From assembly GCF_004011175.1 (NCBI RefSeq), contig NZ_RQXX01000004.1, positions 124,001 through 188,000 of the forward strand: a stretch of 64,000 bases of DNA, written 5' to 3'. The stretch comes from Mesobaculum littorinae (GTDB taxonomy: Bacteria; Pseudomonadota; Alphaproteobacteria; Rhodobacterales; Rhodobacteraceae). Every line of letters starts with the position of its first letter. Position 1 is the stretch's first letter. Below the pieces are notes generated by a model that saw only the letters and a program-made list of their open reading frames with translations, was not told where the DNA came from and made no database searches. Below are positions 4,361-56,087 of this stretch, piece after piece. The translations under genes were made by a program, and so were the position numbers.

Positions 4361-4437
4361 TGGTAGCGGAGGAGGGACTTGAACCCCCGACACGCGGATT
4401 ATGATTCCGCTGCTCTAACCAACTGAGCTACTCCGCC
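4361..4437 (-). tRNA. tRNA-Met (anticodon CAT, elongator type)
   Basis: Reverse strand 77-nt cloverleaf: acceptor GGCGGAG pairs with CTCCGCT (a G-U at the end), D-arm AGCTCAGTTGGTTAGAGC, anticodon stem GCGGA/TCCGC with loop ATCATAA giving anticodon CAT (bases 4401-4403), T-arm with GGTTCAAGTCC and encoded 3' CCA. The weak G1-U72 end and the TAGCTCAG D-arm favour elongator Met over initiator. A CAT anticodon can also belong to Ile2, which only comparison would exclude. Confidence 0.93.
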
Positions 4438-24351: not shown

Positions 24352-24439
24352 CTTCTTCTCTTTGAAAATACTCCCGCCGGAGGCACCGCGCAGCGCGCCA
24401 GCGCGGCGCAAAATGCATAGGCGTGCGCCGCAGGCGCTC
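24352..24439 (-). repeat. Bipartite hairpin repeat, copy A
   Basis: Plus-strand blocks at 24352-24388 (37 bases, cttcttctc start, ctcccgccggaggcaccg end) and 24420-24439 (20 bases, contains gcgcc-gca-ggcgc) match copy B at 40697-40780 in 35/37 and 20/20 positions. The sequence between them differs but in both copies folds into a hairpin (here ccgcgc/gcgcgg). It fills the gap between the SDR stop and hemF start. Confidence 0.8.
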
Positions 24440-24457: not shown

Positions 24458-25264
24458 TCAGTGCGCGGGCGCGTCCACCACGTCGATCAGCGTGCGGCCG
24501 CCGTCGATGGTCAGGATCTGCCCGGTCATGAAACCCGATCCGTCCGACGCCAGGAACTGCACCGCCTCGGCCACCTCGCCCGGCGAAGCGATGCGCGACA
24601 GCGGCGTGTGTTCGATGATCTCGGCACGGAACTTGGCGTGTTCCTTGATCGCGCCGCGCAGCGATGCCGACATCACCGACCCGAAGGCCACCGCGTTCAC
24701 CCGGATGCGATGCTGCGCCAGGGCGACGGCCAGAGACCGCGTCGCCTGGTCCAGCGCCGCCGAGGACACCGAGTAGGCCAGAAGCTCGGGATGCGTGCGC
24801 CGCGCCGCGATCGACGACAGGTTGATGATCGACCCCGCCGGCCCCTCGGACTCGTCCTCTTCCGCCTGCCGGATCATCCGACGCGCGAAGCTCTGGCTCA
24901 GCCGCAGCGAGGTCATCAGGTTCTGCTGCATCAGCGATTCGACCGCGTCGTCGTCGGGGTTCAGCGGATCGCTCAGCACCATCTGGCGCGATGCGTTGAC
25001 TAGGATGTCGACCCGGTCGAAGGCGTCGATCGTCGCCGACAGCAGGTTCGCCACGGCCAGCTTTTCGCGCAGGTCCCCCGCGAAATAGCGGGCGTGATCG
25101 GCTTCGTCCCCGCGCGCGCCGACCTCGTCGACCAGCCGTGCCTCGTCCATGTCTGCGAACATCACGTTCGCCCCCTCGTCGAGGAAATGCCGCGCGATGG
25201 CGAGACCGACGCCGTTGGCCGCCCCTGTCACAACCGCGGTCTTGCCGGAAATCGAAAACGACAT
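24458..25264 (-). CDS. SDR family oxidoreductase lacking the catalytic Lys
   Basis: A 268-residue short-chain dehydrogenase fold: VTGAANGVGLA (cofactor), DILVNASRQ where NAG is usual, INLSSIAAR (Ser), AYSVSS with Tyr 164, and the C-terminal GQILTIDGG. The YxxxK Lys is Ser 168, so normal hydride-transfer chemistry is doubtful. The ATG at 25264 has GGGAGG eight bases upstream, and no frameshift is evident. It might bind a nucleotide without catalysis or use another base. The following gene is hemF, 120 bases away across the repeat. The substrate is unknown. Confidence 0.85.
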   Translation of the reverse strand: MSFSISGKTAVVTGAANGVGLAIARHFLDEGANVMFADMDEARLVDEVGARGDEADHARYFAGDLREKLAVANLLSATIDAFDRVDILVNASRQMVLSDPLNPDDDAVESLMQQNLMTSLRLSQSFARRMIRQAEEDESEGPAGSIINLSSIAARRTHPELLAYSVSSAALDQATRSLAVALAQHRIRVNAVAFGSVMSASLRGAIKEHAKFRAEIIEHTPLSRIASPGEVAEAVQFLASDGSGFMTGQILTIDGGRTLIDVVDAPAH

Positions 25265-40696: not shown

Positions 40697-40780
40697 CTTC
40701 TTCTCTTCAAAAATACTCCCGCCGGAGGCACCGCCGCCCCGCAGGGGCGGCCCCCGAACAGGCGTGCGCCGCAGGCGCTC
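40697..40780 (-). repeat. Bipartite hairpin repeat, copy B
   Basis: The 37-base block at 40697-40733 and the 20-base block at 40761-40780 match copy A (24352-24439). The bases between form an unrelated hairpin, gccgcccc-gca-ggggcggc. It lies between cpdB and the HAD phosphatase gene. Confidence 0.8.
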
Positions 40781-45364: not shown

Positions 45365-45463
45365 GGTGAGAGGTTGGCGCGGGCAAGCACCTCGCCAACC
45401 CGGTCAGGTCCGGAAGGAAGCAGCCGTAACGAGCCTCGCTTGGGTCGTTGTCAGCCTCTCACC
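45365..45463 (+). ncRNA. ffs: Signal recognition particle RNA, small bacterial type (4.5S)
   Basis: About 99 nucleotides. The ends ggtgagagg and cctctcacc pair perfectly, and the domain IV core reads ggtcaggtccggaaggaagc then agcc, with the GGAA tetraloop and symmetric loop that bind Ffh. The RNA with Ffh targets nascent membrane proteins to the inner membrane. Position just ahead of dnaX is common in alphaproteobacteria. Confidence 0.95.
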
Positions 45464-45599
45464 ATTTCCCTCATGCATATGCCAGCCAGCCTTCGCGACC
45501 CGCCAAGGCCGCCAGCCCCCCTGTTCGGGCGCGTCGGACAGCCTGCCGCGCGACACGAAATCGCTCGCCATCCCGCCCTTCCGCAGACTAGGCTGGGCC

Positions 45600-56026: not shown

Positions 56027-56064
56027 CGGACGGCCGCGGGGGTTTCACACCCCCGCACCCCCGT

Positions 56065-56087
56065 GGAGTATTTCAGAAGAGAAGAAG
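56065..56087 (+). repeat. Partial copy C of the intergenic repeat
   Basis: ggagtatttcagaagagaag followed by aag: 20 of 23 positions match the same strand-oriented tail of copies A and B. It is preceded by a perfect hairpin gcggggg-tttcaca-cccccgc (56036-56056), as in the other copies, but lacks the 20-base block. Confidence 0.7.

Follow-up and report, generated by a model that had tools for sequence, protein, structure and literature searches.

A gene-end module of Rhodobacteraceae with a family-wide core and species-specific tails, most likely a putative transcription terminator of unusual build

Two similar intergenic stretches in the window, by which is meant the whole 64,000-nucleotide stretch of Mesobaculum littorinae DNA analysed here, raise the question of what kind of element is repeated at these sites and what has conserved it. 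The first-pass annotation described copy A (24352–24439) and copy B (40697–40780) as a bipartite element with conserved flanks and a changing hairpin, and proposed structure-based selection acting on a structured RNA or a REP-like mobile repeat. The observation itself was confirmed. Both copies lie at these coordinates, their 37-base blocks agree at all but 2 positions (35/37) and their 20-base blocks at every position, while the centre differs in sequence yet forms a hairpin in both; the small stems reported in the end blocks are the small hairpin GAGCGCCTGCGGCGCACGCC of block 2 and a constant hairpin, GCCTCCGGCGGGAG. The interpretation placed upon it was supported in part.

The informative direction proved to be the minus strand, on which the parts follow in the order block 2, variable hairpin, constant hairpin, TATTT, a spacer of two to three weakly conserved bases and a purine-rich tail, RAAGAGAAGAAG. 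In copy A, block 2 occupies 24420–24439, the variable hairpin CCGCGC...GCGCGG 24386–24406, the constant (type 1) hairpin 24371–24384, TATTT, a candidate U-tract, 24366–24370 and the tail in the species dialect, AAGAGAAGAAG, 24352–24362, all on the minus strand. The corresponding parts of copy B, likewise on the minus strand, are block 2 at 40761–40780, a variable hairpin GCCGCCCC...GGGGCGGC at 40733–40751, the constant hairpin at 40716–40729, TATTT at 40711–40715 and the same tail at 40697–40707. A third module in the window lies on the plus strand in a convergent gap and has a different, type 2 hairpin, CCGCGGGGG...CCCCCGTGG, followed by AG (56034–56068), then TATTT, spacer and tail as in copies A and B (56069–56087). 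Copy A lies in sense orientation beyond the 3' end of a short-chain dehydrogenase (SDR) gene (24458–25264, minus strand, PF13561).

A search of the organism's own genome (3.97 Mb, 23 contigs) with the hairpin 18-mer AATACTCCCGCCGGAGGC yielded 53 matches at ≤2 mismatches (46 exact, 3 with one and 4 with two), and none for the reversed control. At the same threshold TATTTNNRAAGAGAAGAA gave 69 matches and the 20-base block 11, again with no control matches, and by coordinates all 11 blocks stood beside a module. The tail word AAGAGAAGAAR was found at 67 sites and its control at 10; two tail words checked outside modules were both within called genes. In all, 75 distinct modules were collected, of which 62 contained AAGAGAAGAA. 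Around the first T of TATTT, their information content was high from −14 to +17 and at background on both sides, and the constant hairpin, TATTT and tail form a sharply bounded 32-base module; within it, position +6 was nearly free and positions +5 and +7 were weak. A segmental duplication was rejected as the source of the match: nothing beyond the module is common to the copies, and information drops to background on either side. The bipartite description holds for a minority, as most modules lack the 20-base block (present in 16 of 75 when scored with up to 6 substitutions).

The part before TATTT was of type 1, the constant hairpin, in 53 of the 75 modules, of type 2, a G-tract hairpin followed by ACCCCCG and GAG, in 16, and of type 3, ending CACCCCGGAG, in one; a hairpin stood directly before TATTT in the 53 type 1 and 16 type 2 modules. 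The five others comprised two that resemble type 1 variants and three without a clear hairpin. One tail was common to different hairpin types in this genome. In other genera the core was seen with types 1, 2 and 3, and several copies in genome G296 had no clear hairpin.

Of the 16 copies with the 20-base block, 15 had a perfect ≥6-bp stem in the 30 bases leading up to the constant hairpin, against 12% of shuffles, and all 16 hairpin sequences differed. Copies without the block had such a stem in 25 of 59 cases, against 7% of shuffles. Because these copies are different loci, pairing has been kept among paralogues, for which template switching may be the cause. To this extent the proposal of structure-based selection stands, the central stem being kept while its sequence changes, but it does not extend to the constant hairpin and the tail, which are conserved as sequence: the constant hairpin hardly varies, and the tail, for which no pairing role emerged, is about equally conserved. 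The strongest constraint on the module is on sequence, not structure. Whole-element RNA folding was unexceptional (z of −1.08 for copy A and −0.14 for copy B), and no Y1 transposase, as REP-like mobility would call for, was detected in the genome; the copies are indeed dispersed, structured and intergenic. A second hairpin just past the tail, which would make a copy a bidirectional terminator, received no clear support (mean z −0.65 for convergent gaps, then −0.20, −0.34 and −0.36).

Within the genus, copy numbers were 49, 16 and 5 at ≤1 mismatch. For the survey of the family, one genome per genus was sampled from 295 genera; the family is read as Rhodobacteraceae because the hemF relatives retrieved are, with few exceptions, from Rhodobacteraceae/Roseobacter genera, and because the gene transfer agent cluster described below fits. 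At ≤1 mismatch the hairpin 18-mer matched in 167 of the 295 genera with up to 73 copies, and controls gave two matches in all; CACCCCGGAGTATTT matched in 140 of 295, many with a single match, for a control of approximately 13 matches in 12 genomes. Among 385 genomes of the class, the 18-mer matched in 4 of 5 family members and, with one match each, in 3 of the 380 others, alongside 2 control matches. In these samples the hairpin–TATTT core is restricted to Rhodobacteraceae and is at background level outside the family. A tail-consensus search of the class matched 66 of 385 genomes, mostly with one to three background matches, and gave zero in the M. littorinae genome, whose dialect differs. 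One 1.4-Mb genome from another family of the class (G406) carried an unrelated repeat, GACTATTTTACACAATATGAAG, at 13 places, and all ten copies among the matches listed were identical.

Tails differ between genomes as dialects. Typical forms are GAAGAGAAGAA in M. littorinae, CAAGAGGAAG in G001, CGAAGATGAAG in G002, GAACAATGAA in G221 and GAAAnTCGAA in G003, with more than one tail in G012, G130 and G221. For 114 hairpin-selected modules from seven genomes, with kinship among the genomes uncorrected, tail mismatch per site was 0.269 within and 0.495 between genomes, and none of 1000 permutations was as extreme. Spacer mismatch was 0.594 within and 0.655 between genomes (1 of 1000 permutations as extreme), indicating that the spacer also carries a slight genome signal; in the 26 bases upstream the values were 0.641 and 0.673, with no permutation. 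That the spacer is shared less strongly than the tail speaks against the copies being mere recent duplicates. Since the lineage tails are common to most sites, the tail may be recognised by a factor acting in trans, or by some feature of the polymerase, that co-evolves with it. In one tail-to-tail pair (L031) both tails had the deviant dialect version GAAGAAGAGAA, as if copied locally.

The dialects keep about equal spacing, even in orthologous gaps that have retained a module. One gene gap held a module in each of the three congeners, the tail being different in every one; a second held a tail-to-tail pair in two congeners, the left partner differing before TATTT; and in a third the module was reversed between two species. 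Both flanking genes were shared with a module of the M. littorinae genome at 4 of 15 G001 loci and 2 of 5 G002 loci examined, and some orthologous modules were kept where the remaining gap failed to align. The position of copy A directly upstream of hemF, to which the first-pass annotation drew attention, is incidental. In the congener G001 the SDR gene is followed by a sense module, with the hairpin starting 32 bases past the stop codon, and hemF is on another contig; in the congener G002 no module separates the dehydrogenase from the neighbouring hemF. Copy A is therefore a feature of the dehydrogenase 3' end that has been gained or lost. Among 80 named hemF loci only two combined the core with the expected tail, and one more came close; the remaining matches to the core lay mostly inside hemF. 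On the gene orders in G001 and G002 and these 80 loci, regulation of hemF was rejected.

Position relative to genes was determined with genes called by a codon-bias script rather than taken from curated annotation, and for the orientation counts the coding model of the M. littorinae genome was also applied to G003, G296 and G077. The 75 modules were distributed as 35 in convergent gaps, 21 in tandem gaps in the module direction, 16 in tandem gaps in the opposite direction, 2 in divergent gaps and 1 overlapping a called gene. The ratio of 35 convergent to 2 divergent has a binomial p of about 1e-8, whereas gaps of ≥60 bases in the window fell almost equally into the four kinds (10, 9, 10, 9). 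None of 52 matches fell within called genes. Among fetched genome loci, with each site counted once, single copies were convergent in 51 cases and divergent in 3; in tandem gaps 46 were sense and 32 antisense (p = 0.14). Pairs in convergent gaps were tail-to-tail, that is, sense for both genes, in 10 cases and head-to-head in none, and those in tandem gaps were tail-to-tail in 9 and head-to-head in 3. Location at gene ends is thus firm; a preference for the sense orientation is seen in pairs, whereas single copies do not establish one. The head-to-head pairs L292, L303 and L320, and L181 on a viral contig, have a T-to-T spacing of 47–48 bases; a pair so spaced would fold into a long hairpin, its loop being about 19 bases.

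The 18-mer also occurred exactly in twenty contigs of a viral collection. Nine of the eleven that were read show the gene-size order typical of the Rhodobacter gene transfer agent cluster (L171, L176, L178, L180–L183, L186 and L188). Most of their modules, which occur singly or in pairs and in either orientation, lie in the gap separating terminase from portal. Pfam confirms terminase and portal on L183 only. The module of L180 is antisense; single copies on viral contigs were sense in 10 cases and antisense in 1. A sample of terminase–portal gaps drawn via the portal gene (80 loci fetched, 67 with a readable gap) contained a module match by a loose criterion in 13 of 67, all 13 sense; several of these cores had one mismatch, and L427 and L428 were identical and had no recognisable tail. 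Replacement of the module by canonical terminators in the other 54 gaps was considered and rejected, with 6 sense and 4 antisense and hence no sense preference; terminator-like sites in these gaps exceeded shuffles (2.2%) on both strands.

The reading favoured here, tentatively and at a probability of roughly 45%, is that the module marks the ends of transcription units in Rhodobacteraceae and is most likely a putative terminator of unusual build. Its design would usually start with at least one hairpin that ends in GAG; a short U-tract, UAUUU, would come next, and a conserved tail some 10 bases further downstream. With RNA polymerase at the U-tract, the hairpin would loosen the transcript, while the tail, lying at the front edge of the polymerase or at a bound protein, may help to hold the polymerase there; the factor or polymerase feature proposed above would read the tail and co-evolve with it. 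Like intrinsic (Rho-independent) terminators, the module places a hairpin and then a T-tract at the 3' ends of genes and forms tail-to-tail pairs in convergent gaps. It differs from them in a short invariant stem, an A in the T-tract and a conserved lineage tail beyond it; ordinary terminators are not known to have a lineage-specific tail in that position. Terminators are normally conserved as structure. In favour of a terminator are the many convergent and few divergent positions, the hairpins directly before TATTT, the sharp edges of the block, the 10:0 tail-to-tail pairs, the sense matches in terminase–portal gaps, the variable stems before the constant hairpin, the dialects, the orthologous gaps that keep the core and differ in the tail, and the restriction to the family. 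Against it stand the single copies without significant sense bias, copy B, which is antisense to both neighbouring genes, the constant stem of only 4 bp, the A in the U-tract, the unexceptional folding, the copies without a hairpin and the one reversed orthologous module. A terminator scan over 10 kb did not flag copy A and found 3 sites where 3.9 were expected. Modules also lie inside what appear to be operons, the gene transfer agent cluster among them, and the remaining terminase–portal gaps do not clearly have canonical sense terminators in their place.

The main rival, which we consider unlikely, is that the module is a REP-like repetitive extragenic palindrome. Such a short, non-autonomous element would owe its spread to a transposase, would be tolerated chiefly away from promoters and would acquire its lineage-specific sequence through turnover of copies. 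REPs are dispersed palindromic extragenic repeats that are lineage-specific, form inverted pairs and avoid divergent gaps. The module resembles REP/REPIN elements with their RAYT in being an extragenic palindromic repeat that avoids divergent gaps and forms inverted pairs, and its dispersed copies, the lack of significant orientation bias in single copies, a copy number that varies within the genus, presence or absence at orthologous gaps and lineage-specific tails would all be expected of such an element. The transposase, Y1_Tnp (PF01797), was however not detected in the genome, in a search that did find it in 5 of 14 known genomes used as control. Recent copies would not be expected to have a nearly free spacer within an otherwise fixed block, and one tail stands behind different hairpin types; the core is family-wide, and some modules persist at orthologous sites although the remaining gap does not align.

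Two further explanations appear improbable, to about the same degree. The module might be a stabiliser or processing site at mRNA 3' ends, where the hairpin would block exonucleases and GUAUU would be cleaved, so that genes of an operon differ in mRNA stability. GUAUU is an RNase E-type cleavage site, and a hairpin immediately 5' of an AU-rich site, like the modules inside gene transfer agent clusters and in short tandem gaps, is consistent with such a role, which leaves the conserved tail, its dialects and the antisense copies unexplained. Alternatively, a protein that structures the chromosome, or some other DNA-binding protein, might bind the module at gene ends independently of termination. 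Conservation of TATTT and tail as sequence about one helical turn apart, the near orientation neutrality of single copies and dialects suggestive of a co-evolving binder would accord with this; the hairpins with their preserved pairing and the 10:0 arrangement of pairs in convergent gaps would not. That the tail is conserved only through base pairing between the facing tails of tail-to-tail pairs is highly improbable, despite near-perfect inverted repeats in several pairs (e.g. L186 and L179), and is largely refuted by the comparison of spacers, in which partners showed no excess matching (0.21 in 16 pairs and 0.31 over all 24, against 0.30 in 108 comparisons of same-genome non-partners), besides which most sites are single copies.

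Among other known systems, the DNA uptake sequences of Neisseriaceae and Pasteurellaceae have lineage dialects and inverted pairs at gene ends and occur in 1000 or more copies. The module shares the dialects and the inverted pairs, and differs in having about 70 copies (53–69 matches per pattern) that are nearly all intergenic, 1 of 75 overlapping a called gene. In the window, Rfam at gathering score gave no match to the module and only a tRNA gene (4364–4437, minus strand) and a bacterial small SRP RNA (45367–45464, plus strand); at six module loci it gave two sub-threshold matches to unrelated families (E of 0.2 and 0.83). No description of the module was found in Rfam or, with motif strings included in the search, in the open-access literature, and one may exist elsewhere. 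The passages of PMC5089854 that deal with the UpsM/mraZ leader terminator present one terminator, located in a 5' leader and giving rise to an sRNA, like the module peculiar to Rhodobacteraceae and unlike it not dispersed at gene ends, and do not mention a tail motif. Passages of PMC5107571 and PMC5089854 treat terminators or sRNAs of Rhodobacteraceae, the gene-end module not among them, and searches by term within the REP surveys PMC12306157 and PMC3733652 returned nothing relevant to it.

With the terminator reading goes a bolder idea that is possible but doubtful, namely that the module is a two-part code in which a family-wide hairpin–GAGTATTT core is joined to a species "password" of about ten bases, read by a co-evolving factor, so that dialects would shift genome-wide. 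At approximately 70 sites per genome the tail is near-exact and stands beside a nearly free spacer, and it differs between relatives at orthologous sites; a tail so shared beside a spacer so free points to something that reads the tail in trans. If confirmed, this would imply a missing factor in termination, or in another process at gene ends, for a bacterial family of major ecological importance. It would also provide a simple sequence rule by which to mark transcript ends in Rhodobacteraceae.
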